A program made the position numbers and the translations under genes. The notes beneath the pieces were generated by a model. The model saw nothing but the letters and a program-made list of their open reading frames with translations. It was not told where the DNA came from and ran no database searches. This document shows positions 19,401 to 46,925 of a stretch of DNA of 63,128 nt, piece by piece. Each line of letters starts with the position of its first letter. Position 1 is the first letter of the stretch. The DNA is from a virus: the IMG/VR virus record IMGVR_UViG_3300025266_000001, positions 1 through 63,128 of that record; one strand, 5' to 3'.

Positions 19401-22400
19401 CCTGAGTCTGTGTTCCAAAACTACTTGTCATTGTTAGAAATGTTTGGAGAGAATGCAGCGGTTCTTAGCCCTTCAAATATAAGTGAAGTCAACGAAATGA
19501 CTCAGGATATATTAAGGGTTATGGATGAAGAGTTCTCTATGGTAGAGGAGCTGGCTCAGAGATATGAGGCATATGACACGAAGGTAGAGAAAGATGGAAA
19601 CATTAATTTTGCTGAGACCGTAAAAAATATGTTAAATGAAAATCTGATAGACGAGACAGAGGCTGATCTTATGATGAAGCACAGGTCTAGCATTGTTCCT
19701 TCGGTAGAAAAGACAGTTAAAACTGAAGCGGAGATACAGGCAGAAAAGGATCAGGTTATAAAAAACATTCTTGAATCTAAGAAGGTATCTTCTTCTTCTT
19801 TACCTAGTAGAGACGAGGTTCTTTTGGCAAAGAAGTTTAAGAGCTTAGTAAAAAACAAAGAGGTTTTAAATAATTTATCTTTGGAAGATCTTAATCAGAT
19901 AGAAAAATTAATTCAGAATATAAACAACGGATACCTACCACACCTTTCACAGATAATGACTGAGAAAATGAATGCTATCATTGATGGTAATAAATTATCT
20001 TCAGCAATTAAGTCTGCAAAAATACCACGCTTCTCTAAGATGTATGCTAAGTTAAAAAACATTATACTTAGAAATAAAAGAGGAGCTATTTCTGAAGCCA
20101 TTAGAAGAAATCCTTTGTATTATATTGATCAAGTATTTGGAAATTTTAAAAGCAAAGCAATTTTCAATTCTTTATTTGAAAGGTCTTCTGTTGCTCAGGA
20201 AAAATTTAGTGTAGATTTAAAATCTGAAAACGGCAAGATAGATAAAGCGGAACAAGAGGTGTTCAAATCTTTTAAAAGAGATGGGAATAAAACATTGATA
20301 TCTAAGTTTAAGCAGATGGTTTATATGATCCAACTTGAACACGATTCTAACATAGGAAACCCGGAGGTTAATCAAGCGTCAGGGTTTATTAAAAAAACTA
20401 TTGAAAAGATCGACGCAGGGGAAACCACCTTTACTATGGATGATGCGGTTATGCTTCAAGAAATTTATGACAAATTTAGTTTTAAAGATAGTAATGGAAA
20501 GAGTCTAGAAATAGATATAGATAAACTGTATAAATCTTTTAATAAAGCTGAGGTTGAGTCTATTAAAACCATACAAGAAGTTAATAGAGGTCTTGGAGAA
20601 AAAGCTGTGTTCACGAGTGCTATTATTCGAGGAGATAAAATAAGCCCTAGAGATAATTATGTACACCTAAACGTATTAGCTGACACCAAGTCTGAGGCTT
20701 CGGTAGCCCCGACTACAATATCAGACTTTAATAAAAGCTTAAGACCATCTACAAAAGCAAAGTCTTTAATTAAAAGACAGGGTGTAACTTCGGCAATTAA
20801 CTTTGATATATATGCTTCAGCTCGCAAGGGTGTTAAAGGAGTTTTGTTAGACTATCATCTTACAGAGCCTATTAGAACTGCTAGAAGGACTATCATACAA
20901 GCAGAGGCTGCTCTTAAAGGAAATAAAACCAGAGTTGACACGGGAGATAGAGAAACTCTAACTGCAATCAAGGAAGCTTTTAATGAGGTTGTAGAAAATC
21001 TATTAACTAATTCATACACAGAAACATCTATAGGATCCGAGGCTTTAAAGTGGATACAGAAAAACGGGTACCGTGCAATTTTAGCAAGTGCTCCTAGATG
21101 GGTGGCTGAACTTTCATCTAACGCAGCTTTCGCTATGATCACTAATCCTGTTTCATTTATAGCGGGTAGTAAGTTCGGAGTTAGATTTCTAAACAGCGAT
21201 GTGGCTTCAAAATCAATGAGAGCATTAGGTAGCAAACAAACCACTCGCGTGTATCCTAACGATGATATGTCCGCCAGAATGGTAGACTCTAGACTTCTTA
21301 ATCAGACCGAGGGGGTGCGAGGAGGAAGAGCCGAGGGTAAGGTAAAAAACAAGCTAAAACAGATATGGAACACAACAGGCAAGAAGTATCAAGGAGCAGT
21401 GTCTGTGGTAGCGGATGGTTTAATTTCTACTCCAGATAAAATCGTAATGAGACCAATGTGGTTTGGTAAATTCTCAAATGAGTTTAAAAAAATAACAGGG
21501 ATCTCCCCAGACTTTGATAAGATTTCTGAACAGGACGAGGCTTATATGTCTAAATACGAATTAGAACTAAACCAATCTACTAAGGTTGCGGATGAAACAT
21601 CTGTAATGACGGGGTCAACCGCCAATCCTTTTATGGGGATATTGAAAGGTACAAGTAATCCTAATCAACATATTACCGTAAAGGCATTTAATGCTTTCAA
21701 TAATTTTATGACTACGTTTTTAATTTATGAATATGTAACGGCAAGAACAGGGATTGTAAATGCAATAGGAAGGGGTCACCTTACTAAAACAAAAGGAGCG
21801 CAACTACTTGCGGGATCTGTAACACGTATGGTAATGTACACGATGATGTCTCAGGTGTTATCGGAAGCATTAGGAGGATTAGCCGAAGATGAACCGGAAG
21901 AACCAAAGGATATAGAAAAAAAATTAGGTCAAGCATTTGCATCCACGTTCTCATCTATGCTATTTGGTAGAGACTTCGGAAACTCAACCAAGGCTATTGT
22001 AAATTGGGGGCTAGAAGAATTTAATAAAGAGTATTTAGATGGCTTAAGAGATGGCGATTATGACGTATATAAAGATAGTATCCAATACCAAATTGTTCCA
22101 AAGAGCAAAAGCGGTAAGGGGACTTCTATTGGTGATTGGCTAGTTAATATGTCAGCGTCATTAGGACCTATGGTAAAGACAATTGATCTTATATTAAAAA
22201 AAGCTACAGAAGGTCCTAAAAAAACGGAGGGTGCTATTCAAAGAAGATCAGATGAAATTTCTATTAGAATCCCATTAGAAGTTTTGGGTAATACGGGGTT
22301 CATTCCAATGTACAAAGATGTTAGAAAATTAGTTCTTAAATCTATGTATGACGGTATGGCTCAGAAAGCCGCAGCGTCTAAGGATAAAAAACAAAGAGCT

Positions 22401-22664
22401 ATAGATCTTCTTCAGGGATATGAAAACCAAACGGATATGAAGAGATATAATCCGAGTCTTTGGGCAGATACTTTTGGACCAAACTCTCCCGACTACTACT
22501 CCAATCAGCAGAAGCTAAAAGAGAAGAGTAACCTTAGAAAAGAAAAACAAAGATTAAAAGATCTTGAGAATGGATATTATCCTTTAAAGAAAAAAGGATT
22601 GTTTAGTGGACAAAAGAAAAAGGGATTGTTTAGCGGGCAAAAAAGAAAAGGACTGTTTGATTAA
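13461..22664 (+). CDS. giant polyvalent internal virion protein with zinc metallopeptidase motif
   Basis: A 3067-residue protein, the largest in the genome. A Gly/Ala-rich hydrophobic stretch at about residues 224-287 could enter a membrane. At about residues 965-969 lies HEIFH, an HEXXH zinc-peptidase motif, with a candidate third ligand Glu near residue 1025 (EERLAEL). Four copies of an RQQK motif, at residues about 1125, 1425, 1616 and 1761, mark apparent domain borders. The C-terminal third resembles the large polyvalent proteins of phages, and the end carries a short tandem repeat (KKGLFSGQ). I see no DxDGD motif, so it is not the giant crAss RNA polymerase. A gp16-like ejection role that delivers several enzyme activities to the host is likely. 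No promoter is seen inside. Confidence 0.75.
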   Translation: MNEDYLLELYSFLGTQDQTFSQDVAFEQFVLDMGNESYAGNIRGFLAEKDPNFGKDVSLDEFLIDIKKKDGVEVVDSVSEAGPLDLQQPSVTKEKITEEDFFQGGFGDALRAFDSISPIGLGDFVDDMARSIASGRAQGLTSENAADLMIYGAGSSEEDIESFLEANKNSQNYGASAEMQDYQRIYEEEGKGVWGVVKGLAHNPSVLNEVILTSLSSLANNSDAMIAGGAVIGTSAGVGALTAGTAATAVVPVVGTVVGAAAGAYSGAVAAMPYAFGAASAMVEMGATFSELLQEELGNQEMTAENVREILEDPEKFTSIRNKAIARGAIIGTLDAFTGKVASGVGAKILTSSAKKSVTGMATRGGVMKSIGTGAGIESIGGSAGESLARAAIGQDQDISDIMLEGVTNLPGGVRSTLQARLSKPIYKVNGKKETAQTIDELIATMTPDQLASSDIKISNDYEGRAKKIQDIIVTGKTRQLVALANPELNDATLDAITALELQVKSFENNKTETGKSKVSELKAAIADLQEIQLADEVSQDVKNTFESLESSEQIQRKTEAGRVLLEEKTTALGPDSQENVSITDEEITQRALEIFSKEKPISNNNINKQYNQLSPKLKLTYVEQASDIMQEEAEDQGLTEFNFTEEDINERAAILLNEDLQGSKLQVEDNESVVGTSVDKKGRTVTYISKTTKKDGVTKTSFNFNRDDKDASQRGAAGVTLDEGLPDGYKVSENDAIEGYEITKVYEVREGDNGNNAATVEFTSPEESFRGEVVLEETNEVAKTPQKETQASDKVDEINKRREEELDSKAGRVFPITIENTKENSNLIKEKKNQEKKIDEINAKYDSEIANLTNEEQADIETFFSPDSKVDDTNTLSGSNLGINRNKAPKLNSQQNKNKNRLVRIAEMGAKAIAKVLPDVRMVLHESNEEYLRFAKEGKGRAEYHPENNIIHINLSEATTSTVPHEIFHAVLINKIKGDPAIAKAAEAMMLSVRKSLSNNSELAQKIDKFAAAYTGTQEQFQNEERLAELIGILSSAEAFKGLSKPTKNIIIQWLKDFAKKYGIKIGSDFGKKDSDVIDLLNTIARKTRTGEEIEESDIKSLEELDSGTNPVGTPTKIEPSKSRQQKIKFKDSYNKSLVNSSLSIDLNALIEDIHTKNQKVWFWVADQLGIDKELGLDGGPSFAHQNPNEIWASGMKLKAIEKNIAETDYLFIISGSPTQSQLFNKKVYDNTIEKLGDFNTFKDQAISTNAKSEIIQVLEAHDSWASLREDSTTDTAAKKKTPNKEAIDKKIGTGRKKFLYALGKTQNTPNTKFTQYMNSIDGYTDQNTFRDGFYRENDFKQNDIMLVLKPTGVQAGSNHSTYENTVLGEVVGVPDTKIDASEIMPNEMRIKMEGKPRNNTSQSVAPYGSGRRNIEPKSKSATRQQKSYKKSDLSSKNMIGFLDSLENALGINENGEQIDSGDGVIPKFINNGIIDKDLLAGVLLYEAPQRVLFISVNPTLEVVNFLELLNSQLNDKLILGTISYIKDQLPYLEKTKNIVDEKMGIMEDLGGSKKASLSDKIKSQQTAQSSLALKMKVGKAMTETINKTYDAIWKKYIEEDNGTKSLDNKSPSVRQQKDDYKPNDPVIVTRPVEVINAPKGVFVNVGMIEGQTDVEISQETIESRLPKDVKIIKSKVKKKEVGETEDTLLLKLSRPLTNTEMKDFLVSNKQQAIGQMVDGKGILYGNDQTEIDDNWGGEFSPQYFPTFNGTVLKSSPKARQQKDNERESSLERAMSEIDNIISKSKKRGTKFSKIPQNVVNYLQGTKVYEESTDVQREQMVRDVRELLGIKEKKAPSVKRILGDLKSAKTFTLTDKQLVIKTIKDLNRGANTAVKSFRIASQILAKEFTGMVKSGNLTIRQSAALVRKFSKVDMLSDASIENFVEYMARVVNNADYLNQISKARKLASRAKKNITKKIGIADAISNQLRTIFSIKPTLIPESVFQNYLSLLEMFGENAAVLSPSNISEVNEMTQDILRVMDEEFSMVEELAQRYEAYDTKVEKDGNINFAETVKNMLNENLIDETEADLMMKHRSSIVPSVEKTVKTEAEIQAEKDQVIKNILESKKVSSSSLPSRDEVLLAKKFKSLVKNKEVLNNLSLEDLNQIEKLIQNINNGYLPHLSQIMTEKMNAIIDGNKLSSAIKSAKIPRFSKMYAKLKNIILRNKRGAISEAIRRNPLYYIDQVFGNFKSKAIFNSLFERSSVAQEKFSVDLKSENGKIDKAEQEVFKSFKRDGNKTLISKFKQMVYMIQLEHDSNIGNPEVNQASGFIKKTIEKIDAGETTFTMDDAVMLQEIYDKFSFKDSNGKSLEIDIDKLYKSFNKAEVESIKTIQEVNRGLGEKAVFTSAIIRGDKISPRDNYVHLNVLADTKSEASVAPTTISDFNKSLRPSTKAKSLIKRQGVTSAINFDIYASARKGVKGVLLDYHLTEPIRTARRTIIQAEAALKGNKTRVDTGDRETLTAIKEAFNEVVENLLTNSYTETSIGSEALKWIQKNGYRAILASAPRWVAELSSNAAFAMITNPVSFIAGSKFGVRFLNSDVASKSMRALGSKQTTRVYPNDDMSARMVDSRLLNQTEGVRGGRAEGKVKNKLKQIWNTTGKKYQGAVSVVADGLISTPDKIVMRPMWFGKFSNEFKKITGISPDFDKISEQDEAYMSKYELELNQSTKVADETSVMTGSTANPFMGILKGTSNPNQHITVKAFNAFNNFMTTFLIYEYVTARTGIVNAIGRGHLTKTKGAQLLAGSVTRMVMYTMMSQVLSEALGGLAEDEPEEPKDIEKKLGQAFASTFSSMLFGRDFGNSTKAIVNWGLEEFNKEYLDGLRDGDYDVYKDSIQYQIVPKSKSGKGTSIGDWLVNMSASLGPMVKTIDLILKKATEGPKKTEGAIQRRSDEISIRIPLEVLGNTGFIPMYKDVRKLVLKSMYDGMAQKAAASKDKKQRAIDLLQGYENQTDMKRYNPSLWADTFGPNSPDYYSNQQKLKEKSNLRKEKQRLKDLENGYYPLKKKGLFSGQKKKGLFSGQKRKGLFD

Positions 22665-32482: not shown

Positions 32483-32543
32483 GCCTAAAGATATTCCCGT
32501 TACGTTGCTACGCAAGAGGCTTTACTTTGCTATATCTAAAGGC
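32483..32543 (-). ncRNA. large imperfect stem-loop in the early leader
   Basis: GCCTAAAGATAT and ATATCTAAAGGC form a 12-bp stem with two central mismatches around 37 bases, with a small inner hairpin (TTGC/GCAA). It lies between the cassette array and the replication operon. The rest of the gap 32356-32592 shows only a weak promoter-like AACCTTTG on the - strand near 32430. Confidence 0.35.
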
Positions 32544-32592
32544 ACTATCGTTGTTATCCCGTAATTGTGGTGTTATCCGACGTTAGGTGCAA

Positions 32593-32883
32593 TTAATAAG
32601 CACCGTTACTAAACCAATATTTCGTTTCACAATCTTCGCAACAATGTACTTCATCCCAATCCCAATAACTACCATCTAAAGTAGAACCTTTGCTTTCATT
32701 AAAGCATTTAGGATATTGCTCGTTGTTCACTACATAAGTTTCTGTTGTGTCATTGTGTACTGTGCCACAATTAGGGCAAGAGTATTCTTTACCCTTAACT
32801 GCACCTAACAATGTATATAAATCATTGCATTTAGGCATTGGCTTAGTTCCGTTCAATTTATGTTCAATATCTGCTGTATTCAT
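32593..32883 (-). CDS. cassette protein with CxxC pairs
   Basis: A 96-residue protein with two CxxC knuckles (CPNCGTVH and CCEDCETK), a likely zinc ribbon. The cassette proper begins inside the gene at 32808 (codons for LLG|AVKG); the N-terminal third (MNTADIEHKLNGTKPMPK) is encoded in the loop of the attC-like site 32806-32934. The cassette end repeats the start in inverse (GTTAGGTGCA with TGCACCTAAC). Last cassette of the array. Confidence 0.7.
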   Translation of the reverse strand: MNTADIEHKLNGTKPMPKCNDLYTLLGAVKGKEYSCPNCGTVHNDTTETYVVNNEQYPKCFNESKGSTLDGSYWDWDEVHCCEDCETKYWFSNGAY

Positions 32884-32934
32884 AGTTCTGTGTTTATTTA
32901 TTAATAATGCAACGCTTCATATACTAGTCCGTTA
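32806..32934 (-). repeat. attC-like site 1
   Basis: Left arm TAACGGACTAGTATATGAAG followed by CGTTGC pairs with right arm GCAATGATTTATATACATTG followed by TTAGG. The loop holds the start and N-terminal codons of the downstream cassette gene. Confidence 0.7.
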
Positions 32935-32943
32935 TGTGTAATG

Positions 32944-33225
32944 CTACCCAAAGTTATCTATGTCAGCACTATCTCTATATTTCATTTCACAACCAATACA
33001 CTCAATATCTTCTAGTTCACTTTTTGTCATTTCACCTAAGTGATGTATGTTTTTTTCGTGTTCGGGTATCTTTTCACCGCACGCACTACACATAACACCA
33101 GATAAAATTAATTGCTCTTTTAGTGCTTCCCAAATAAGTTCAGGGCTATTAAATTCTGACCTAAATTCATCTTCAAAAGTATCTTCAATCTTACTTACTT
33201 TTTTTATAAATTCTGCTTTTTTCAT
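32944..33225 (-). CDS. chimeric cassette protein, QLILSGV joint, CxxC pairs
   Basis: A 93-residue protein. Residues 1-41 are an acidic helix ending KEQLILSG, encoded in the loop and right arm of attC-like site 33093-33288; from V onward the 164-bp cassette encodes MCSACGEKIPEHEKNIHH and a second pair, CIGC, a likely zinc ribbon. Cassette ends match in inverse over 12 of 13 bases (GTTATGTGTAGTG against CATTACACATAAC). Confidence 0.72.
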   Translation of the reverse strand: MKKAEFIKKVSKIEDTFEDEFRSEFNSPELIWEALKEQLILSGVMCSACGEKIPEHEKNIHHLGEMTKSELEDIECIGCEMKYRDSADIDNFG

Positions 33226-33288
33226 TTGTGTATTTTTATTTAATTTGTTTCTTAATTCTACGCAACTAATCTTATCTGCGATACGTTA
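33093..33288 (-). repeat. attC-like site 2 (QLILSGV type)
   Basis: Right arm GCAATTAATTTTATCTG then GTGTTATG pairs with left arm CAGATAAGATTAGTTGC (here CGCAGATAAGATTAGTTGCG at 33260-33280 on the - strand). The loop encodes the N-terminal helix of the chimeric gene. Confidence 0.75.
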
Positions 33289-33495
33289 TGTGGCATTTAC
33301 TGCACGTCTAACATCAACCCAATATTTTCTAACAGAAACCACTCCCCAATTTTCTGCTTGTAATTCAATTTCGTCAATTACCTTATTTACTACTTTATTT
33401 GTTTCTTTATCGCTTGGCATATAACCATTGTCTTCATCCCATTCATATTGTTGAAACTTTTCTAATAAATCTTCTGCTTTTAATTTTGGACTCAT
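33286..33495 (-). CDS. cassette protein, hypothetical
   Basis: About 69 residues starting MSPKLKAEDLLEKFQQYEWD, then a coiled acidic-basic region with one WG motif. Whole gene lies inside its cassette (33286-33515), whose ends are inverse over 10 bases (GTTATGTGGC). I recall the opening from similar phage and plasmid proteins, function unknown. Confidence 0.65.
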   Translation of the reverse strand: MSPKLKAEDLLEKFQQYEWDEDNGYMPSDKETNKVVNKVIDEIELQAENWGVVSVRKYWVDVRRAVNAT

Positions 33496-33512
33496 AATAA
33501 AATAACGCCACA

Positions 33513-33639
33513 TAACAAAATATAAAAATAATAGCCTAGTTACGTGGTCTTATTAAAGGCTATTGTGTATTAATTAATTTAGTTTATAATTGAATATTTG
33601 TTTACTTTTTATCGGCTACTATTATTATACTAACCGTTA
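33513..33639 (-). repeat. attC-like site 3
   Basis: Contains a perfect AATAGCC/GGCTATT stem (33530-33564) and arms TAACGGTTAGTATAATAATA and TATTATTTTTATATTTTG before GTTATGTGG. It is noncoding and lies between two cassettes. Confidence 0.6.
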
Positions 33640-33655
33640 CCAAAAATAAAAAATA

Positions 33656-33913
33656 CTAATCTTTCATCTTTTTAATAAAGTCCGTGAAGTGTAGAGTGTA
33701 TGCAGGATGAAATCCATTGTGTTTTAAAATACTTTCATCCATTATTATATCCATTGGTGTTTTAGGTATAATTTTGTCTTTTACTTCTTCTGTTAATGTT
33801 TCGTCAAGGTATTTATAAAACTCAATTCCAAGTCCGTCAATATCTTCATTGGTTAGTGTTTTACCAGCTTCTTTCCAATTTTTTCTAATAAAGTATCTAA
33901 AAATGTCTGTCAT
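33656..33913 (-). CDS. cassette protein, hypothetical
   Basis: About 85 residues from the ATG giving MTDIFRYFIRKNWKEAGKTL. It is soluble, with a DGLGIEFYKYLDETL helix in the middle. The upstream codons belong to the attC-like site. Cassette ends match in inverse over 9 bases (GTTACCAAA). Confidence 0.65.
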   Translation of the reverse strand: MTDIFRYFIRKNWKEAGKTLTNEDIDGLGIEFYKYLDETLTEEVKDKIIPKTPMDIIMDESILKHNGFHPAYTLHFTDFIKKMKD

Positions 33914-33939
33914 AATTATCCGTATTTTTTTACATTTGG

Positions 33940-33992
33940 TAACACCGTATAAAATCCATTGCGAAAAGCAACGTATCTTATACAATTCGTTA
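33940..33992 (-). repeat. attC-like site 4 (compact, clearest example)
   Basis: Only 53 bases. On the - strand TAACG, GTATAAGATACGTTGC, loop TTTTC, GCAATGGATTTTATAC, GGTGTTA. The stem has one or two mismatches and unpaired bases, as in classical attC hairpins. Confidence 0.8.
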
Positions 33993-33995
33993 TGC

Positions 33996-34211
33996 TTAAT
34001 TTTTTAGCCAACATTCTATCCATAAGTTAAGCCAAAGTACTTGTATATCTATTGCGAAATGGTATTTACCTATATTGTTTTGTTTGTTAACTTTTAGCAC
34101 AAATCCAAAGTCTAGCCAATCCCAAATTATGTGAGGTTTAAAAAACATAAGCATAACACCGTATAAAGTCCATTGCTTTTTATCTTTTTGGTCACTTATT
34201 TCTTTACTCAT
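33996..34211 (-). CDS. chimeric cassette protein, QWTLYGV joint
   Basis: A 71-residue protein. The first 18 codons (MSKEISDQKDKKQWTLYG) come from the loop and arm of attC-like site 34154-34278; the 167-bp cassette supplies the rest, rich in Trp and Ile (DIQVLWLNLWIECWLKN). Cassette ends are inverse over about 16 bases (GTTATGCTTA). The C-terminal sequence resembles small conserved phage proteins. The first codons are shared with the gene at 35007. Confidence 0.7.
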   Translation of the reverse strand: MSKEISDQKDKKQWTLYGVMLMFFKPHIIWDWLDFGFVLKVNKQNNIGKYHFAIDIQVLWLNLWIECWLKN

Positions 34212-34278
34212 AATTTCTGTTTATTAATTAGTTTTGTCGCTTAATTAAAGGTTGCAACGTACCTTATACAGTCCGTTA
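34154..34278 (-). repeat. attC-like site 5 (QWTLYGV type)
   Basis: Left arm TAACGGACTGTATAAGGTAC then GTTGC pairs with right arm GCAATGGACTTTATACGG then TGTTATG. The loop carries a start codon and the N-terminal codons of the downstream gene. Confidence 0.75.
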
Positions 34279-34295
34279 GCAAACATAATTTGCTA

Positions 34296-34523
34296 CTATT
34301 CGCATTCATTACAATGTTCTTTTCTTCTTCCATTTTCATCGACTGTATAACCATATCCATCACAATTACCGCAAACAACGGATTTGCTAACAACGGGTAT
34401 CGTTAATGCTGTGTTGCAAGTTTCAATAATCATTTTACCCCATTCCTCATCAACTCGACCAAGTTTTATACCTGTTAAAAGTTGTACTTTTACTTGCTCA
34501 ATATCGTTTTTTAATTCTTCCAT
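34296..34523 (-). CDS. chimeric cassette protein with CxxC pairs
   Basis: A 75-residue protein. The N-terminal 45 or so residues form a helix ending TIPVVSKS; the recombination point falls in the VVS codons. The 115-bp cassette encodes a zinc-knuckle-like end (CGNCDGYGYTV and HCNECE), similar to the DnaJ-type CxxCxGxG repeat. Cassette ends are inverse over 9 bases (GTTAGCAAA). Confidence 0.7.
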   Translation of the reverse strand: MEELKNDIEQVKVQLLTGIKLGRVDEEWGKMIIETCNTALTIPVVSKSVVCGNCDGYGYTVDENGRRKEHCNECE

Positions 34524-34576
34524 TTTTATTAAGTTTTGTTATTATTAAATCGCACTAACCATACCCAAATACGTTG
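34388..34576 (-). repeat. attC-like site 6
   Basis: Left arm GGGTATGGTTAGTGC and right arm GCATTAACGATACCC pair over 13 of 15 bases, with quite different sequence from the other sites, so the stem is conserved and not the bases. The loop codes for the N-terminal helix of the next gene. Confidence 0.7.
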
Positions 34577-34592
34577 TGCTTAATACGGAATA

Positions 34593-34916
34593 CTAATAAA
34601 GGTATGGGTGCAAAGTTTGCAAACTATCTTTTTTTACTTCTTCCCAGATTATTTGATTATCCCAAGTGCAAGGCACAAACACTTGTTTGCAGTATAATTT
34701 AACTCCTGTTTTTCTAAGTTCAGATATTACATCTTCCATCTCTTCGTCACTCATATTGTTTGCGCCTTTTATGTTCTTGCTTACAAAGTCAGCGACTTGC
34801 AAACTCTCAGGTTGTTCGCATACATAACAACGGGTTTGTTTATCCGAGCAAGAAAAAAGTACTAAGCACAACAATGTATAAAGTGCATAGCGAGTAAGCG
34901 TTTTAATTAAGTTCAT
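34593..34916 (-). CDS. chimeric cassette lipoprotein
   Basis: A 107-residue protein with a lipoprotein signal: basic N-region (MNLIKTLTRYALYT), hydrophobic core and lipobox LVLFSC, followed by a Cys-containing mature domain (CYVCEQPESL). The junction lies inside the signal peptide: the first 16 or so codons are in the attC-like site 34869-34993 and the rest in the 298-bp cassette. Cassette ends are inverse over 14 positions with one mismatch (GTTGTGCTTA). A phage-encoded envelope lipoprotein could act in superinfection exclusion; this is inference. Confidence 0.65.
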   Translation of the reverse strand: MNLIKTLTRYALYTLLCLVLFSCSDKQTRCYVCEQPESLQVADFVSKNIKGANNMSDEEMEDVISELRKTGVKLYCKQVFVPCTWDNQIIWEEVKKDSLQTLHPYLY

Positions 34917-34993
34917 TTTGTATCTATTTAAGTTCTTTATAATTCAATATTTCGTGCTGTTTAGGTCGCTACGACACCTTATACTAGACGTTA
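34869..34993 (-). repeat. attC-like site 7
   Basis: Left arm TAACGTCTAGTATAAGGTGT then CGTAGCG pairs with right arm CGCTATGCACTTTATACATT then GTTGTG. Stem sequence is again different but paired. Confidence 0.72.
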
Positions 34994-35006
34994 GAGTGCA
35001 TTGTGC

Positions 35007-35240
35007 TTAAATTACATCACCACATTTGGAGCAGGCGGTTATATCTACGCCACAAGTTATATCTGCTTGGTAATCGTGTTCGCACAACGTACCCTTCGGC
35101 ACACTAACACCAGATAAAATTAATTGCTTGGCTTCTAGCTTTTCTACATAAGACTCTAATTGGTCAACGTATTCTAAAAATCTCATTTTAGAACCTTCAT
35201 AATACATTACTCTTTCTGGTTTTGTTATTTCTTTACTCAT
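35007..35240 (-). CDS. chimeric cassette protein, QLILSGV joint, Cys-rich end
   Basis: A 77-residue protein. A coiled-coil N-terminal half ending EAKQLILSG lies in the attC-like site 35105-35297; the 117-bp cassette encodes VSVPKGTLCEHDYQADITCG and ACSKCGDVI, a likely metal site (C, H, CxxC). Cassette ends are inverse over 9 of 10 bases (GTTAGTGTGC with GCACTCTAAC). Its first codons (MSKEIT) match the gene at 33996. Confidence 0.72.
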   Translation of the reverse strand: MSKEITKPERVMYYEGSKMRFLEYVDQLESYVEKLEAKQLILSGVSVPKGTLCEHDYQADITCGVDITACSKCGDVI

Positions 35241-35297
35241 CGTTTATTTATTTAATTCGTTAATATTTCCGCAACTAATCTTATCTGTATAACGTTA
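35105..35297 (-). repeat. attC-like site 8 (QLILSGV type)
   Basis: Left arm CAGATAAGATTAGTTGC and right arm GCAATTAATTTTATCTG pair over 17 positions with two mismatches. The 30 bases after the left arm are shared with the site at 37211-37399. Confidence 0.78.
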
Positions 35298-35420
35298 TAC
35301 ACAATAAATTAAACCTAACACTATCAATCCAACAAATAAAGTCATACCAACATAGTGTTTAATTAATTCTCTTGTCTTGTTAATATTTTTACCCTGTAAT
35401 TCTAATAAAGCTAATTTCAT
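35295..35420 (-). CDS. small single-pass membrane protein with canonical SD
   Basis: A 41-residue protein with a C-terminal membrane helix (VGMTLFVGLIVLGLIYCV). It is preceded by AAGGAGG seven bases before the ATG, a near-perfect Shine-Dalgarno sequence and rare in this genome. Cassette ends are inverse over 9 bases (GTTATACAC with GTGTATAAC). An in-frame ATG seven codons upstream overlaps the SD and is less likely. Confidence 0.65.
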   Translation of the reverse strand: MKLALLELQGKNINKTRELIKHYVGMTLFVGLIVLGLIYCV

Positions 35421-35504
35421 ATAATATCCTCCTTGTAACATAATTTTGTTTTTTAAATGGTTTAATTAAAAGTGTATAACATCGTACATAATTAATAAAT
35501 AAAA

Positions 35505-35645
35505 CTAACTGCGTGCTAGCTTTGTTTCAAGTTCGTATAGTGTAGTTAAACTAAGTACTGTATGGTTTCCATCATTTAAGCAGTCTCTAACAAGTCTAAT
35601 TAAGTACCTTCTTTCTGCTTCTGTTATTTTAATTTCGTGTTTCAT
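35505..35645 (-). CDS. small hypothetical protein, possibly inside an attC-like loop
   Basis: A 46-residue ORF (MKHEIKITEAERRYLIRLVR at the start), helical, no membrane segment. It lies wholly between two cassette boundaries (35480 and 35680), so it is either an extra gene within a long attC-like loop or a cassette whose own ends have decayed. The sequence looks protein-like; function unknown. Confidence 0.55.
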   Translation of the reverse strand: MKHEIKITEAERRYLIRLVRDCLNDGNHTVLSLTTLYELETKLARS

Positions 35646-35691
35646 AATTCGTAATTTTAAAATTCATATTCTAATTCGCCGTTATGCGCAA

Positions 35692-35898
35692 TTAAAGTCC
35701 GTCATTTAACTCTTGTGGTTCTTTATTACATTTAGCACATATATACCCATATAGATGGTCTTTCACTTTTCCGAGTTCTTCTACATCCCAAAGTTCCTCA
35801 CCGTCTTTTTCAGTCACTTTTACTTTAAACTTTTCATTCCAAACATTGTATATCCTAATAAATTCATCAGAACCACATTCACATTTATAATATTTCAT
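35692..35898 (-). CDS. zinc-ribbon cassette protein
   Basis: A 68-residue protein with an N-terminal CECGSDEF knuckle and a C-terminal CAKCNKEP knuckle, a classical zinc ribbon. Its 242-bp cassette has inverse ends over 9 bases (GTTATGCGC with GCGCATAAC), and a palindrome AAGCGCAT/ATGCGCTT (35914-35946) lies at the upstream junction, where the attC-like site is shortened to about 30 bases. Confidence 0.7.
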   Translation of the reverse strand: MKYYKCECGSDEFIRIYNVWNEKFKVKVTEKDGEELWDVEELGKVKDHLYGYICAKCNKEPQELNDGL

Positions 35899-35953
35899 TT
35901 TTAAATCAATTAAAAGCGCATAACAACGTATAAAATTAATGCGCTTGGTTATA

Positions 35954-36175
35954 CTACTTTTCTAGTACATATCTAAGGTGTTTAACCTCTTTTCCTTTCG
36001 TGTGCACTTGTATTCCTATGCTTGTAGGTGTGCCGTTATTGTCAGCCATTCCGCAAACACTTACAACCTCGCTTACTTCAATTACTTCGTGCTGTTCTTT
36101 TTCTACAACCATATAAGGGTAGTTAATAGAACCGTTTTTAAAATCCTCAATCTCTTTTTTTGTAAAATATTTCAT
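35954..36175 (-). CDS. cassette protein, hypothetical
   Basis: About 73 residues from the ATG giving MKYFTKKEIEDFKNGSINYP. A beta-rich middle with EVIEVSEVVSVCGMADNNGT suggests a small barrel. The 13 upstream codons are leader. Boundary match is weak here. Confidence 0.6.
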   Translation of the reverse strand: MKYFTKKEIEDFKNGSINYPYMVVEKEQHEVIEVSEVVSVCGMADNNGTPTSIGIQVHTKGKEVKHLRYVLEK

Positions 36176-36208
36176 TGTTTTTTGTTTAAGTTTATTATTA
36201 ACTAACCC

Positions 36209-36332
36209 TAACACAAAATATAATGCATAGCTAGTATTGGTTTATTTATTAAGTTGTTCGGTATTTCCGAACTACTGTATTATTTATTTTGGTTCGTGTA
36301 TTGTAACGCTACGCACCATATTCAAAACGTTA
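36209..36332 (-). repeat. attC-like site with internal hairpin
   Basis: Left arm TAACGTTTTGAATATGGTGC then GTAGC and right arm GCTATGCATTATATTTTG then TGTTAGG pair. A perfect GTTCGG/CCGAAC hairpin sits between them. Noncoding; together with flanks it fills the 166-base gap 36176-36341. Confidence 0.7.
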
Positions 36333-36341
36333 TGTGTAATA

Positions 36342-36515
36342 CTACTTATCTCGCCAAGTCCATCCTAAACACCATTTGCAAAACAGTCGGTTTATTAACT
36401 TTGGTTTTTTTGTGAAATTAAATTCAATCGTATTTACTTTTGTCCCTGTAATTTCGTAACTACCTACAACTTTAGGTGTTTCAATTTGATTTAATGTAAA
36501 TGTGTTATTTTCCAT
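36342..36515 (-). CDS. cassette protein, hypothetical
   Basis: About 57 residues starting MENNTFTLNQIETPKVVGSY. The C-terminal KPKLINRLFCKWCLGWTWRD is a short basic-aromatic tail that I recall from other phage and plasmid small proteins, where it follows similar N-termini. Function unknown. Confidence 0.6.
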   Translation of the reverse strand: MENNTFTLNQIETPKVVGSYEITGTKVNTIEFNFTKKPKLINRLFCKWCLGWTWRDK

Positions 36516-36553
36516 TTTAATTAAGTTTGTGCTAAACGTTAGCATTAATATTA

Positions 36554-36739
36554 TTAATCACAACCGCACTCGTAGTTATTATTAGTGTTCATTTCCTCTT
36601 TGCAGTCTCGGCATCTAAGTATTATTCGTGTGGTTAGTTGGTTCAACCGTTCATTTATTAAGTCTGTTAAGTCTTTTTTTGATAATCCACTTCTAATATG
36701 AAAATTCAATTCATTTAAAAAAAGTTCTTCTCCTGTCAT
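36554..36739 (-). CDS. cassette protein with Cys pairs
   Basis: A 61-residue protein with an acidic helix (MTGEELFLNELNFHIRSGLS) and a C-terminal metal-site-like motif (CRDCKEEM and YECGCD). Its downstream junction is a very short CTAAACGTTAGC, as if the attC-like body had been deleted. Confidence 0.6.
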   Translation of the reverse strand: MTGEELFLNELNFHIRSGLSKKDLTDLINERLNQLTTRIILRCRDCKEEMNTNNNYECGCD

Positions 36740-36794
36740 AATTCATTTATTTAATCCGTTAAAAATCTAATCATATACTCAACGTTGTAGCCAA

Positions 36795-37049
36795 TTATTT
36801 GCTATCCTCTATAAATCGTTTAACTATTCTCTCCAAAGCAAGGTCTTTGTAATTGGTAGGCATAGCGTATTTCAATACCGCAAATAACTGTTCGCTTTGC
36901 CCTACAACATCGGCTATAATTAATTGCTGGGCTTCTGCTCCTTTATGAAATCCGTGCATAAAACCATTGCATTCATCTTGGTTAAATCCTAACTTAATAT
37001 AATCATTAAGTGCTTTTTGAAACTCTTCTGTGTATTTTTCGTTTGTCAT
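36795..37049 (-). CDS. chimeric cassette protein, QQLIIADV joint
   Basis: An 84-residue helical protein. The N-terminal 45 residues end in EAQQLIIAD, encoded in attC-like site 36905-37103; the 123-bp cassette gives VVGQSEQLFAVLKYAMPTNY and a basic helix. The joint peptide differs from QLILSGV because the stem bases differ, with compensation on the other arm. Confidence 0.65.
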   Translation of the reverse strand: MTNEKYTEEFQKALNDYIKLGFNQDECNGFMHGFHKGAEAQQLIIADVVGQSEQLFAVLKYAMPTNYKDLALERIVKRFIEDSK

Positions 37050-37103
37050 TATCTATAAATTTTAGTGTTATTATTTTGCAACTAATCATAGCCGTGAGCG
37101 TTA
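36905..37103 (-). repeat. attC-like site with compensated stem
   Basis: Left arm CGGCTATGATTAGTTGC and right arm GCAATTAATTATAGCCG pair. Relative to the QLILSGV-type sites (CAGATAA with TTATCTG), both arms have changed so that pairing is kept, which is covariation evidence for a selected stem. Confidence 0.8.
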
Positions 37104-37106
37104 GAG

Positions 37107-37343
37107 TTAATTGCCCTTTTCAGGTGTTATCCTTTTACCACATTCGCAACTTAAATAAGTCCAATCAGAGTTTACATAGTATTTGCATTCGTGGACGGGC
37201 AACGTAACACTAACACCAGATAACTTTAATTGCTCTTTATGGTATTGTTTAGCAAATTCGGTCATTGCATTTAGTATACTTTCATTACTATTACCTACCT
37301 CTACACCGTTTAAGTGTTTGTTTAATATTATTTGTTTATTCAT
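37107..37343 (-). CDS. chimeric cassette protein, QLKLSGV joint, Cys-rich end
   Basis: A 78-residue protein: a helix ending KEQLKLSG in the attC-like site, then a cassette-encoded domain with HECKYYVNSDWTYLSCECGK, a likely zinc site. Cassette ends are inverse over about 15 bases (GTTAGTGTTACGTTGCCC with GGGCAATTAACTCTAAC), one of the best matches. Confidence 0.72.
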   Translation of the reverse strand: MNKQIILNKHLNGVEVGNSNESILNAMTEFAKQYHKEQLKLSGVSVTLPVHECKYYVNSDWTYLSCECGKRITPEKGN

Positions 37344-37399
37344 TGTATTTTATTTAATTCGTTAATATTTCCGCAACTAATCTTATCTGTATAACGTTA
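37211..37399 (-). repeat. attC-like site (QLILSGV type)
   Basis: Left arm CAGATAAGATTAGTTGC and right arm GCAATTAAAGTTATCTG, the latter with one extra mismatch. It shares about 50 bases with the site at 35105-35297, including TATTTCCGC on the + strand. Confidence 0.75.
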
Positions 37400-37585
37400 G
37401 CAACCATTAGACCACCAAGTTTCGCACTTTTTACAAGCATAAGAATTTTCTGTAAGTGTTGTTTTATGTCCTTTAGATTTACATTTATGGCAAACGGAAT
37501 TGCTAACAACACCTATATTTAATTGCTTACTTTCTTCCGTTTCTCTAAGGTTTCTAATTAATAATTTACTGTTTCCTTTTCTCAT
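37397..37585 (-). CDS. chimeric cassette protein with two CxxC knuckles
   Basis: A 62-residue protein. The N-terminal half (basic, ending KQLNIGVVS) is in the attC-like site 37504-37631; the 110-bp cassette encodes a zinc ribbon (CHKCKSKG and CKKCETWW). Cassette ends are inverse over 8 bases (GTTAGCAA). Confidence 0.7.
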   Translation of the reverse strand: MRKGNSKLLIRNLRETEESKQLNIGVVSNSVCHKCKSKGHKTTLTENSYACKKCETWWSNGC

Positions 37586-37631
37586 AACTTTATTATTCTA
37601 ATACGCAACTCTCGTTATCTGTACAACGTTA
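37504..37631 (-). repeat. attC-like site, diverged arms
   Basis: Boundaries GTTAGC and TATAACG are clear, but the arms (CAGATAACGAGAGTTGC and GCAATTAAATATAGGTG) pair only partly. Confidence 0.55.
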
Positions 37632-37640
37632 TATTTAATG

Positions 37641-37925
37641 CTAGATTCCAATGTATTCAAAAACGTGTCCAACAAATTCACCTTTTTGATATTGGTAAGT
37701 TCCAATGTATTTTCTATCCACACCCATATCATATTTGATTTCGTGACCTGTTCCAAATAATTCAAAAATCCTTTCCTCTTTTCCATTGTCTGTTTTAACC
37801 ATTACCCACATACAGGGCTTAAATGTTTTTTGGTCTTGTTGCACCGAAAGTATTTCAGCGTCTTTAGGTATTTGCAATTTTGTAAGTTCTTCAAACTCTA
37901 ATTCATATTTCCAAATCGTGTACAT
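37641..37925 (-). CDS. DUF7352-like cassette protein
   Basis: A 94-residue beta-rich protein. The pattern MYTIWKYELE, then IPKDAEILSVQQDQ, MWVMVKTDNGKEERIFELFG, TGHEI and YIGTYQYQKGEFVGHVFE matches a widely spread small phage and bacterial domain that I know as DUF7352; its function is unknown. Its 338-bp cassette is complete and has inverse ends (GTTATATTTTAGTGC with GCATTAAATATAAC). A shorter frame at 37598-37786 is a shadow. Confidence 0.75.
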   Translation of the reverse strand: MYTIWKYELEFEELTKLQIPKDAEILSVQQDQKTFKPCMWVMVKTDNGKEERIFELFGTGHEIKYDMGVDRKYIGTYQYQKGEFVGHVFEYIGI

Positions 37926-37955
37926 ATTTATTTTGTTTTTAATTAATTAACCGCA

Positions 37956-38093
37956 CTAAAATATAACACCAGATAAAATTAATTGCTTATTTCTATCATT
38001 TAAAATCGTATATGCTTCAGCTGTAATGTCTCCGTTCTGGTGTAATCGCTTTAAAATACGTTCAGTTTCTTTTAATTGTTTTTTGTTCTTCAT
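37956..38093 (-). CDS. short ORF ending at a cassette joint (QLILSGVIF)
   Basis: A 45-residue helical ORF (MKNKKQLKETERILKRLHQN at the start). It runs through the attC-like site and ends three codons after the recombination point, because the next cassette brings a stop codon. It shows what an N-terminal module looks like when not fused to a useful C-terminus. Confidence 0.6.
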   Translation of the reverse strand: MKNKKQLKETERILKRLHQNGDITAEAYTILNDRNKQLILSGVIF

Positions 38094-38145
38094 TGTTTAT
38101 TTTGTTAAGTTATTATTCACGCAACTAATCTTATACAATTCGTTA
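37964..38145 (-). repeat. attC-like site (QLILSGV type)
   Basis: Left arm TAACGAATTGTATAAGATTA then GTTGC, right arm GCAATTAATTTTATCTG then GTGTTATA. The loop is nearly filled by the 45-codon ORF. Confidence 0.72.
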
Positions 38146-38316
38146 CCCCTCCACATTCAGTATATCACATTTTCTTTTACCAATGTGTAGTTCTACTAAA
38201 GCCGTATCAATCAAGCTGAAGTCTTCTGAATAGTCATAGAACAGACCTTCAATCTCCAGTACTTCTCTTACTGTTGTACAGTTTGCTATGGCTGATATAA
38301 ATTCTTCTTTAGTCAT
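38143..38316 (-). CDS. hypothetical cassette-region protein
   Basis: A 57-residue acidic protein (MTKEEFISAIANCTTVREVL at the start) that looks like a small helical domain. Its stop codon overlaps a CGTTACC boundary. The 123-base gap downstream of the next gene up (38317-38439) shows only weak arms and AT-rich sequence. Confidence 0.6.
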   Translation of the reverse strand: MTKEEFISAIANCTTVREVLEIEGLFYDYSEDFSLIDTALVELHIGKRKCDILNVEG

Positions 38317-38439
38317 TTAGATTGGTTTTGTGGTGGTGGTGTTGGGTAATAAAAATTAACAATACTTTAAAGATGTTTATCAATTTACTAATCTTTCCAT
38401 AATTTTTTCTTTCCTTATTACTATTCGTTGTAAAACATA

Positions 38440-38688
38440 TTATTGACCTAATCTTTTTTGTTTCATCGAGCAACCTAAACATTGTTGTTTACATTCTTCA
38501 CTTTCCTTTACGTTAACTGCATAGCAATAAGACGATTTTACAACACCGCATAAATCAAATGCAACCATATACCCCATCTTAAAACCAAACGCACCGTCAA
38601 GGTTGTTTATATATCCCTTTTTTTCAGCTTCGTTACAGAGGTTATCCATTACTTTAGCCTGTTCTTTTGTTAATTTTATTTTATCCAT
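38440..38688 (-). CDS. Cys-rich cassette protein
   Basis: An 82-residue protein. An N-terminal helix (MDKIKLTKEQAKVMDNLCNE) is followed by a FGFKMGYMVAFDLCG segment and a Cys cluster (CKQQCLGCSMKQ), a possible metal site. On its upstream side the boundary motifs abut (CAACGTTG at 38721-38728), so the attC-like body between it and the next gene is missing. Confidence 0.65.
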   Translation of the reverse strand: MDKIKLTKEQAKVMDNLCNEAEKKGYINNLDGAFGFKMGYMVAFDLCGVVKSSYCYAVNVKESEECKQQCLGCSMKQKRLGQ

Positions 38689-38700
38689 AATTATATTTAA

Positions 38701-38877
38701 TTACACTTGATTTATACGTACAACGTTGTAATCACATTTAACAACATCGGGCTTTTCTTGTTTTTTTATATAATCATTCGCTTTTTTTTCAGATGTAAAT
38801 CGTTTAGTATATCTTTCTATTATCGTTTCATAGTGTACTACCCAAACACCCCTTCTTAATTTTTGTTTTGTAAACAT
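38701..38877 (-). CDS. hypothetical cassette protein
   Basis: A 58-residue basic protein (MFTKQKLRRGVWVVHYETII at the start) with a short beta hairpin and helix (RFTSEKKANDYIKKQE), a common small fold in phage proteins. Its cassette ends match over about 7 bases (GTTGTAA). The last codons run through the abutting boundary motifs. Confidence 0.6.
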   Translation of the reverse strand: MFTKQKLRRGVWVVHYETIIERYTKRFTSEKKANDYIKKQEKPDVVKCDYNVVRINQV

Positions 38878-38914
38878 TTTTATAAAATTTTAGTTAATAT
38901 TTCCGTACTACTTA

Positions 38915-39128
38915 CAACAACATATATAAACAATTAAAAATCACTTCTTGCCATTTATTAACCATAGTTCTACTAAAACCATAGCAGCAATTAAGCAAAT
39001 TGTATTTTCAAATCCTTGAAAGTGTTTAAGTGCTACCAGAATTAAAGTGATTACTACTGCTACTATTGCGTCTGTTATTCTTTTGTTCATTTTATCTAAT
39101 TTTTAAAAGTTCATATATGAGTACGTTA
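38915..39128 (-). repeat. attC-like site enclosing a whole gene
   Basis: Left arm CATATATGAAC then TTTTAAAAAT pairs with right arm ATTTTTAATTGTTTATATAT then GTTGTTG. The 150-base gene 38941-39090 occupies the loop. Confidence 0.6.
38941..39090 (-). CDS. small two-helix membrane protein in an attC-like loop
   Basis: A 49-residue protein with two membrane helices (IVAVVITLILVALKHF and TICLIAAMVLVELWLI). It lies completely between the paired arms of one attC-like site, so it is carried by the site and not by the cassette. Holin-like or envelope-acting roles are possible; neither is shown. Confidence 0.6.
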   Translation of the reverse strand: MNKRITDAIVAVVITLILVALKHFQGFENTICLIAAMVLVELWLINGKK

Positions 39129-39136
39129 TGCCACAA

Positions 39137-39379
39137 TTAAAGGTTTTTAGCCTTCCATTCTAATTGCTCTATTACACCATTACAATCTAAATCATACTGT
39201 TCAGCTATGTGCTTACCTAAAACCTTTAACAGTTCACTTTGTTGGCTAACACCAGATAAAATTAATTGCTCTTTTAGTTCTTTATTTTCAGATTTTAAGC
39301 TAGAATTATTATCCATTAATTTAATATTGTCTTTAGCTAAATATTCTGCTCTTTTTTTATAATCTATCTCTTTTTTCAT
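39137..39379 (-). CDS. chimeric cassette protein, QLILSGV joint
   Basis: About 80 residues from MKKEIDYKKRAEYLAKDN. The N-terminal coiled coil ends KEQLILSG at the recombination point 39248; the cassette (39126-39248) encodes VSQQSELLKVLGKHIAEQYD and a short helix. Ends are inverse with small gaps (GTTAGCCAACAA with TTGTGGCATAAC). It is the first cassette of the array; upstream, the left arm is reduced to GGTTAGTTGCG and no clean boundary is seen. Confidence 0.65.
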   Translation of the reverse strand: MKKEIDYKKRAEYLAKDNIKLMDNNSSLKSENKELKEQLILSGVSQQSELLKVLGKHIAEQYDLDCNGVIEQLEWKAKNL

Positions 39380-39446
39380 TGTATTTTTATTTAATTCTGT
39401 TAATAATTTACGCAACTAACCCTAACCGCATACGCTACCTACGACA

Positions 39447-45260: not shown

Positions 45261-45307
45261 CCTAGAGAGAAAAAAAAACAACATTTTTTTTATATGAATT
45301 AATTGTC

Positions 45308-45315
45308 TACCTTTG
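45308..45315 (+). promoter_or_regulatory. groEL -7 box
   Basis: TACCTTTG matches TAnnTTTG and lies 29 bases before the chosen groEL ATG. Confidence 0.75.
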
Positions 45316-45344
45316 TCTTTATTATAAATAAAAAATCAAATCAA

Positions 45345-46925
45345 ATGTCAGAACTAGGATACTCTCCAAAGAACTTATTGTTCGATGACACGGGCAGAAA
45401 AAAACTAATTAAAGGGATTACTACAATTGCTTCAGCAGTTAAGTCGACACTTGGACCTTCGGGTCAGACAGTGCTGATTGAATCGCCTCACCACACACAC
45501 GGAATAACTGTCACCAAGGATGGAGTAACTGTCGCTAAGGCGGTAGACTTATTAGATCCTGTCGAGAACCTTGCGGTTCGTATGATGAAGGAGGCAGCCG
45601 ATAGGACGGCAACGGAAGCGGGTGATGGTACGACAACGGCTATTGTCTTAACTGAAGCACTTGTTAGTTCTGGGTTTGATTTACTTAATCAAGATGGCAT
45701 CAACAAGACTGAGGTATTGCGTGAGCTTGTATCTCTAACCAATGATGTTTGTAAGAACTTAAAGAAGAAATCTAAGCGGGTTACTCAAAAAAGGTTAAGG
45801 GATGTGGCTACTATATCGGCTAACAACGACAAGAACTTAGGAAAGATTATATCTGATGTCTATTCAAAGGTTGGCAAGACGGGTATCGTTACTGTTGATA
45901 AGTCACAGACGAGCACCACTCATTATGAGACAACAAATGGGCTGAAGGTAGACAGGGGTTATTCGAGTGATCTGTTTATAAATGATCACCGGAAGGACGA
46001 GTGTATTTTAGAAGACACATATGTACTTGTGAGTGACGCTGAGATAAATAACTTACTTACTATTGAGAGCATACTAAAACCAATTATACAAGACGGCAAG
46101 AGATTGTTGATCATCGCGCCTTGTTCTCAGAATGTGCTAAACACTTTATCGGCAAATGTAATGAAGGGCGGGTTGAAAATATGTGCTATCACGCCACCGA
46201 ACTTTGGGTACAAGCAACACGAGCTAATGAATGACATTGCGCTTACTGTTGGGGCTACATATTTTTCTGAGAAGACTGGTGATGACTTAAGTATTATAAC
46301 TGTTGCTGATTTGGGGAGTGCCTCGAAGGTAATTGTATCTAGGGACTCTACTATTATTGTAAAGGATACCATAGAGGATGAGCCTGCGGTAACTGAGAGG
46401 GTTGAGCAATTGTGGGCAGCCCACAAGATGGCGAGCAACAAAACAGATAGAGACTTCATACTATCACGGATAGCTTCCCTTACGGGAGGTGTTGGTGTGA
46501 TATATGTTGGAGGAGCCACTGACCTAGAGCAGAAGGAGCTTTATGATCGTGTGGATGATGCGGTGTGTGCTGTTCGTTCGGCACTTGAAGATGGTATTCT
46601 TCCGGGTGGAGGGATAGCACTTCTAAATGAGTCAATAAACCTACCATCTAGTGCCGCGGGACATATTTTAGGTGCAGCACTTAGGGCTCCATTTAATCAG
46701 ATTTGCGAGAACGCCGGTGCTAATCTTATAACACCACCACTTAAAGCATATGATGAGGGATGGGACATAAAAAACAATTCTGAGTATGGCAATATGTACA
46801 GGATGGGGATCATTGATCCTTTGAAGGTAACTAAGTCGGCGCTGCAGAGCGCGGTATCGGTTGCTGTAACAATATTATCTACCAATGCTATTATCACAAT
46901 GGCACGGACATATGAGACAAATTAA
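45345..46925 (+). CDS. groEL: phage-encoded GroEL chaperonin
   Basis: A 526-residue group I chaperonin. Hallmarks are present: SAVKSTLGPSGQTVLI and ITVTKDGVTVAKAVDL near the N-terminus, the ATPase motif AGDGTTTAIVL, and DAVCAVRSALEDGILPGGGI with the catalytic Asp region near the C-terminus. The Gly-Gly-Met tail is missing. ATG at 45345 is chosen over an upstream TTG because the promoter box overlaps that TTG. It is followed by groES, so the phage brings a full folding machine, probably for its own capsid or tail proteins. A few large phages are known to carry GroEL; a phage groEL-groES pair is uncommon. Confidence 0.95.
   Translation: MSELGYSPKNLLFDDTGRKKLIKGITTIASAVKSTLGPSGQTVLIESPHHTHGITVTKDGVTVAKAVDLLDPVENLAVRMMKEAADRTATEAGDGTTTAIVLTEALVSSGFDLLNQDGINKTEVLRELVSLTNDVCKNLKKKSKRVTQKRLRDVATISANNDKNLGKIISDVYSKVGKTGIVTVDKSQTSTTHYETTNGLKVDRGYSSDLFINDHRKDECILEDTYVLVSDAEINNLLTIESILKPIIQDGKRLLIIAPCSQNVLNTLSANVMKGGLKICAITPPNFGYKQHELMNDIALTVGATYFSEKTGDDLSIITVADLGSASKVIVSRDSTIIVKDTIEDEPAVTERVEQLWAAHKMASNKTDRDFILSRIASLTGGVGVIYVGGATDLEQKELYDRVDDAVCAVRSALEDGILPGGGIALLNESINLPSSAAGHILGAALRAPFNQICENAGANLITPPLKAYDEGWDIKNNSEYGNMYRMGIIDPLKVTKSALQSAVSVAVTILSTNAIITMARTYETN

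Follow-up and report, generated by a model that had tools for sequence, protein, structure and literature searches.

A probable integrase-less cassette array of an integron-like class from marine Flavobacteriaceae in a podovirus-like phage genome

Why should a viral genome carry a dense run of small same-strand genes, each bounded by GTT plus a purine at one end and by the inverse of its own opening bases at the other? The question is raised by the virus record IMGVR_UViG_3300025266_000001, whose 63,128 nt were analysed as a whole and are called the window here, and in which an earlier note made from the letters alone had proposed an integron-like cassette array at 32581-39249. With a probability of roughly 80 %, we read this region as a cassette array without an integrase (CALIN) that belongs to an integron-like class of marine Flavobacteriaceae and resides in a podovirus-like phage. 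The region had been located correctly, but its limits shift: the array begins at 32,582, and the last site ends near 39,436, where GTT is absent. About 19-20 cassettes and ~16-19 attC-like sites lie between these limits.

32582..39436, plus strand: whole cassette array; reading order on the plus strand R''-L''-variable terminal structure (VTS)-L'-R', genes on the minus strand
32522..32584, plus strand: left boundary; first R' box (GTTAGGTGC) with no attC arms before it, ..GTTATCCCGTAATTGTGGTGTTATCCGAC/GTT

The cassette ends carry much of this reading. All 20 boundaries read by eye, 17 of 17 in the earlier note, are GTTA or GTTG and delimit small genes on one strand; as they were chosen by eye, they are not independent evidence. 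Among the 16 cassettes that can be paired, the six bases 3' of GTT agree with the inverse of the six before the AAC of the same cassette at 5.5 of 6 positions, compared with 2.07 of 6 for other pairings and 2.0 of 6 for the box of the next cassette, and the summed own-end match was reached in none of 100,000 permutations. This match is strong over ~6-9 bases, and further out a conserved CAAT-rich motif contributes. The inverse gene-specific ends noticed previously are thus genuine, as are the four matches quoted as examples, although their positions were off by one or two bases. Boundaries are degenerate around 35,478-35,683, 36,200-36,784 and 38,142-38,430. The cassette unit delimited by these comparisons is G/TTR..body..YYAAC-attC, where the slash marks the crossover point, and the window sites possess the R''/R' boxes AAC..GTT with the cassette-specific end match of attC. 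With at least two attC sites and no integrase nearby, the region is a CALIN: PF00589 has no match anywhere in the record, which hence encodes no integrase, and the combination of intI and attI with the array that defines a complete integron does not occur in the window. The left boundary, whose position is backed by a perfect own R'/R'' match, is suggestive of an attI-like site.

A covariance model (R1) of 55 bacterial chromosomal sites and zero phage sequences, whose training sites were themselves found via matrices that began from window sites, provided an attC check of the kind that the earlier note had called for. Over the 63 kb it matched 10 sites with E<2e-4 and another four to five with weaker scores where boundaries had been picked by eye. 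Every one of these is a minus-strand match between 32,807 and 39,436, and nothing convincing turned up elsewhere; the E-values of the model are approximate, and window sites with E >0.05 rest on position and weight matrix. The imperfect palindromes described between the genes are therefore true paired arms, and the model sites, the own-end matching and the missing PF00589 domain together bear out the proposal of an integron-like array without integrase in a phage. An Rfam scan of the window gave no match, and simple hairpin scanning produced too much noise to be of use. Furthermore, a pair of half-site weight matrices derived from 14 window sites recovered 91 sites across 30 phage loci; the threshold applied is one that random sequence passes well under 0.01 times per kb. 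Sites chosen with matrices trained on like sites have mismatch counts biased to the consensus. Phage site lengths form three classes of ~50, ~122 and ~185-188 nt. The window sites are the following (PWM, position weight matrix; ORF, open reading frame; residues are those of the encoded N-terminal modules discussed below).

32807..32933, minus strand: attC-like site 1 (127 nt), R1 50.7 bits, E 1e-8
33094..33287, minus strand: attC-like site 2 (194 nt), protein-coding, R1 E 3e-5, N-module ..KEQLILSGV
33514..33638, minus strand: attC-like site 3, R1 E 5e-7
33941..33991, minus strand: attC-like site 4, compact, 51 nt, minimal loop, R1 E 1e-7
34155..34277, minus strand: attC-like site 5, R1 E 2e-8
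34389..34575, minus strand: attC-like site 6, protein-coding, ..TALTIPVV, PWM 35.2 bits, weak partial R1 match with E 0.7
34870..34992, minus strand: attC-like site 7, R1 E 2e-9
35106..35296, minus strand: attC-like site 8, protein-coding, ..AKQLILSGV, R1 E 1e-4
35478..35683, minus strand: degenerate attC-like site 9, R''/R' recognisable, arms weak
36210..36331, minus strand: attC-like site, top model match of the window, R1 66.9 bits, E 3e-12
36906..37102, minus strand: attC-like site, protein-coding, ..AQQLIIADV, R1 E 1.5e-8
37212..37398, minus strand: attC-like site, protein-coding, ..EQLKLSGV, PWM 48 bits, R1 E 0.26
37505..37630, minus strand: attC-like site, protein-coding, ~125-nt class, ..KQLNIGVV, PWM 45 bits, R1 E 0.23
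37965..38144, minus strand: attC-like site with a short ORF stopping just past R'', ..NKQLILSGVIF and stop, R1 E 1.6e-5
38542..38727, minus strand: attC-like site, protein-coding, R1 E 0.09, ORF 38440-38688 spans L''/R''
39248..39436, minus strand: last attC-like site, L' present, R' GTT missing (GCTACC), R1 E 1.6

Do these arms behave as attC arms do? In the 55-site model, changes on both sides occur in 13 of 15 pairs and 95% of cells are paired; none of 500 shuffles reaches this signal, which collapses when the alignment is slid. Arm mismatches are directional, A.C on the top strand and hence T.G on the bottom (1162 directional A.C vs 37 G.T), and the same two mismatch positions are found in phage and host sites. 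Imperfect L''/L' arms favouring the bottom strand are thus present, whereas the extrahelical base expected in L'' is not: the arms are of equal length and have, in its place, A.C (bottom T.G) at two fixed positions. The spacers adjoining R'' and R' are unequal in length. The attC bottom strand is predicted to fold into a hairpin.

Sites of this kind are at home in bacterial chromosomes. A looser site pattern occurs in at least 118 genome stretches, nearly all from marine Flavobacteriaceae among the matches listed, and complete sites, mostly 120-125 nt long, number at least 414 in at least 103 chromosomal loci. Model R1 finds sites in 133 of the 150 Flavobacteriaceae genomes sampled and in 59 of 247 Bacteroidota genomes; matches in metagenome-assembled genomes of Paceibacterota and Planctomycetota (L039, L050) are probably misbinned flavobacterial DNA. 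Chromosomal arrays adjoin a tyrosine recombinase of 355-403 residues, encoded by 98 of the 133 genomes with sites vs 3 of 17 without (Fisher p 1e-5), and its gene points towards the cassettes. The first R' box was found shortly downstream of this gene in 12 of 12 arrays and matches the first R'' perfectly over 8 nt, as is expected of attI. Among 46 pairs of chromosomal cassettes with a common body, identity remains ~1.0 up to and including GTT but is ~0.63 one base further on. By these comparisons, chromosomes hold the same sites in long arrays beside an XerA/IntI-like recombinase and an attI-like boundary, with crossover placed at G/TT. The enzyme scores 190-221 bits with NF040815 (XerA) and 179-202 with TIGR02249 (integron integrase, cut-off 265), its best folds are PDB 5hxy (XerA) and then 2a3v (IntI4), and it has the C-terminal SPLD motif in common with IntI together with a ~90-residue N-terminal extension; in a small tree it falls outside both the IntI and the XerC/D clades. 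A recombinase of the same family is also encoded on a Chryseobacterium plasmid (NZ_CP041688, L289 8974-10017), followed by co-directional RidA, Crp/Fnr and GLPGLI genes; none of these sites was found on that plasmid, which possibly carries an integron with another attC type.

Cultivated phages record how such cassettes move. Cellulophaga phages phi19:3 and phi13:2 have a 371-bp segment in common, 99% identical, which is exactly one cassette from G/TT to G/TT and sits in different surroundings, while phi18:3 and phi19:3 have a common left flank up to GTT with different cassettes beyond. Likewise, Polaribacter phages P12002S and P12002L, with 100% and 99.6% identity on the two sides, diverge only within the array, and their left flanks agree as far as GTT. 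Crossover at G/TT, as predicted from integron biology, is thus displayed by the 46 chromosomal pairs and by the exchange between phi19:3 and phi13:2, with one departing P12002 junction; for the window array itself, which has no close relative with an array, it was not seen. In the comparison with related phages, which the earlier note had suggested, 18 phages that share the terminase of the window phage proved free of the array. As to the spread of the phage sites, 24 viral contigs contain the phage-type L'' AACACCAGATAAARTTAATTGC; an exact search with a long L' pattern matched no viral contig.

Two properties absent from the earlier note set the phage cassettes apart. Genes run antisense to attC in 61 of 65 viral cassettes (7 of 7 in the window) vs 14 of 384 chromosomal ones; a gene leading into its own 3' attC is accordingly found in chromosomes (370 of 384 co-directional) and not in phages. 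The alternative that sites run the opposite way, with co-directional genes starting in the previous cassette, was ruled out, as the homology of body plus attC extends to GTT. Furthermore, sites of the ~185-nt class are protein-coding on the reverse strand in 56 of 70 viral vs 1 of 73 chromosomal cases, coding being scored as an ATG-started frame that ends in ..QLILSGV or a variant in phase with the R'' GTT codon, for which shuffled sequence gives 0.7%. Changes between related modules concentrate at the third codon position (56, 34, 72; p 0.001; pairs not all independent). This frame runs on into the body as a C-terminal module of ~30-60 residues, often cysteine-rich and in many cases ending within ~20 nt of R', so that in phages the long site is predicted to encode the N-terminal half of a protein and the body its C-terminal half.

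32944..33225, minus strand: cassette gene, N-module within attC and Cys-rich C-module in the body
35007..35240, minus strand: cassette gene of two-part design, ..AKQLILSGV plus SVPKGTLCEHDYQ..CSKCG
37107..37343, minus strand: cassette gene of two-part design, N part related to that of L022 and other phages
39137..39379, minus strand: cassette gene, ..KEQLILSGV plus SQQSELLK.., C-modules alike in L019, L028 and L013

In the locus pairs L023/L029, L007/L010 and L157/L160, N-modules that are almost identical lead into unrelated C-modules, and the DNA sequences part exactly at AAC; a single C-module occurs with unrelated N-modules in L014/L018. Chromosomal sites, too, are shared by genes that are unrelated to one another (2,304 pairs); the sharing of sites alone is not special, and what is special is the in-frame joining of protein halves in phages. 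It is possible, though we hold it for doubtful, that phage arrays are a combinatorial protein-making device, in which the attC hairpin would supply the N-module (a start codon, ~40 residues and ..QLILSGV, with the R'' inverse as in-frame codon GTT, Val), the body would supply the C-module, and recombination at R'', working as a second junction, would join any pair in frame besides ordinary exchange at R'. When ten of the window cassette proteins were scanned against Pfam and PHROG, DUF7352 was the single solid match. The cassette gene 34593-34916 has a lipoprotein-like signal (LFSC), unusual among otherwise Cys-rich small proteins. Cassette 3 (33286-33513) has an 83% DNA relative in gp027 of Cellulophaga phage phi18:3 (L001 7986-8204), which lies outside the phi18:3 array on the other strand and is perhaps a gene that turned cassette or left one.

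What weighs against an integron-like array has to be set beside this evidence. The window holds no integrase, in 35 of the 133 site-bearing genomes no recombinase passes the threshold applied, and the host enzyme is without ~43 residues of the IntI-specific I2 insertion in comparison with IntI1 and 2a3v. This insertion, near patch III, grips folded attC in IntI. The phage-type L'' (..CCAGATAAARTTAATTGC) was found in 0 of 84,980 genomes, and the chromosomal arrays that were fetched contain no relative of a window cassette, hence no exchange between phage and host pools was seen; the two pools look separate, and cassettes are likely exchanged mostly among phages. Finally, one of the junctions between P12002S and P12002L falls 7-8 nt short of GTT, within the L'-R' spacer of P12002L, and fits homologous or annealing rather than site-specific recombination. 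Phage cassettes might then be exchanged by enzymes such as RecT or Erf on repeated attC arms, with no site-specific recombinase active today, a view in keeping with the RecT annotated near Baltivirus arrays and with the near-identical site pairs L007/L010 and L023/L029, whose final bases before GTT differ. We consider it unlikely, as the phi19:3/phi13:2 edges are exact at G/TT on both sides, left flanks stop at GTT, and the own R'/R'' pairs, which arm exchange would scramble, are preserved.

That the array is a relic, acquired a single time from a host or some other phage and since then subject to decay or drift alone, would account for the degenerate sites at 35478 and around 36.2-36.8 kb, the last site without GTT and the missing recombinase gene; it appears distinctly unlikely in view of near-perfect own-end matches and paired arms kept in most cassettes, and of cassette content that differs between sister phages of other lineages. 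Very improbable, in our judgement, is the notion that the hairpins are terminators or regulators in transcripts with incidental end matches. Although the folded strand is the coding strand in phages and G-U pairs fit RNA, the same strand folds in chromosomes, where genes run opposite (370 of 384) and the transcript carries the wrong strand; moreover, cassette-specific end matching and G/TT breakpoints would stay unexplained, and Rfam was silent.

Returning to the integron-like reading, which enzyme would serve an array that encodes none? As the window lacks an integrase and 18 relatives lack the array, acquisition with a host recombinase in trans would be the best reading. A host IntI in trans, as formerly assumed, is plausible because the same sites adjoin a tyrosine recombinase in hosts, but the enzyme lacks the IntI insertion and the term is only loosely right. 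During infection, we propose, the host recombinase would act in trans on folded single-stranded phage sites, inserting, deleting and reordering cassettes, and homologous recombination by the phage in the repeated arms would add to this turnover, whereby the phage would gain a fast-changing set of small early genes. Two array-bearing viral contigs with XerA/IntI-like recombinases of 269-281 residues were also observed (L033 1474-2283, phage G007; L034 1213-2058, G024); that of G007 lies ~5 kb from its array, hence some phages may bring their own enzyme. In Baltivirus phages (L031, L032, L035), an arm-type tyrosine recombinase of 418-433 aa is encoded near an attI-like array start; as a divergent arm-type integrase, it is a doubtful candidate for the array integrase.

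The window terminase is closest to that of Podoviridae sp., a 60-kb podovirus (73.5%), and then to Elemovirus (47%), neither filed under Crassvirales; the label "crAss-like" given earlier finds no support there (no crAss marker was searched). The phage is podovirus-like, with a likely flavobacterial host as judged from its relatives. It also encodes a GroEL-type chaperonin at 45303-46925 (phrog_5725, E 1e-128), present as well in the closest annotated relative, MW202828, and a single open frame of 3067 aa at 13461-22664.

Such arrays are not without precedent in phages, and the statement that none had been described was too strong, yet for the class of the window it is fair within the literature searched. 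In the part of their account covered here, Qi et al. (2023) report CALINs in virulent phages including Polaribacter P12002L, as short clusters of at least two sites (PMC9892861), and a P12002L site that IntI1 recombined through its bottom strand (PMC9892861). P12002L carries the same site family as the window, and from the flanking methyltransferase genes we infer that the site they tested belongs to it. These CALINs and the window have attC sites with cassettes in a lytic phage and no integrase in common; the window differs by its ~16-19 sites, uniform antisense genes and coding attC, coding sites being unmentioned in that part of PMC9892861. Phage cassettes with antisense genes and coding ~185-nt attC sites look new. 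For Bacteroidetes, IntegronFinder 2.0 recorded a single complete integron, in Salinibacter, and otherwise nothing but integrases lacking cassettes (PMC9024848), and no paper on a flavobacterial integron was found in the literature searched (subscription journals and preprints were outside its scope). A site class spread through Flavobacteriaceae with a recombinase lacking the IntI insertion likewise looks new. The phage array is thereby linked with an extensive and apparently undescribed integron-like system of a group for which standard surveys report almost none (PMC9024848), and this suggests that an integron can be run by an enzyme that lacks the IntI insertion. Since recombination sites double as protein-coding sequence, genes, and possibly protein halves, become swappable, and modular protein shuffling by site-specific recombination is testable in the cultivated phages P12002L/S, phi13:2, phi18:3 and phi19:3.

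The flavobacterial arrays resemble the Vibrio superintegron with its Vibrio cholerae repeats (VCR) in their long series of similar sites with unrelated, co-directional genes, in the G/TT crossover and in the attI-like start beside a tyrosine recombinase. The array recombinase is akin to both XerA (NF040815, 5hxy) and IntI (TIGR02249, 2a3v) by profile and fold, but it departs from IntI, as it scores below the TIGR02249 cut-off, lacks ~43 residues of the I2 region and stands outside the clade in the small tree. Unlike that of Vibrio, it has no IntI insertion, bears an N-terminal extension of ~90 residues and points towards the cassettes, and where Vibrio sites have an extra base in L'', flavobacterial and phage sites have equal arms with two fixed T.G pairs.

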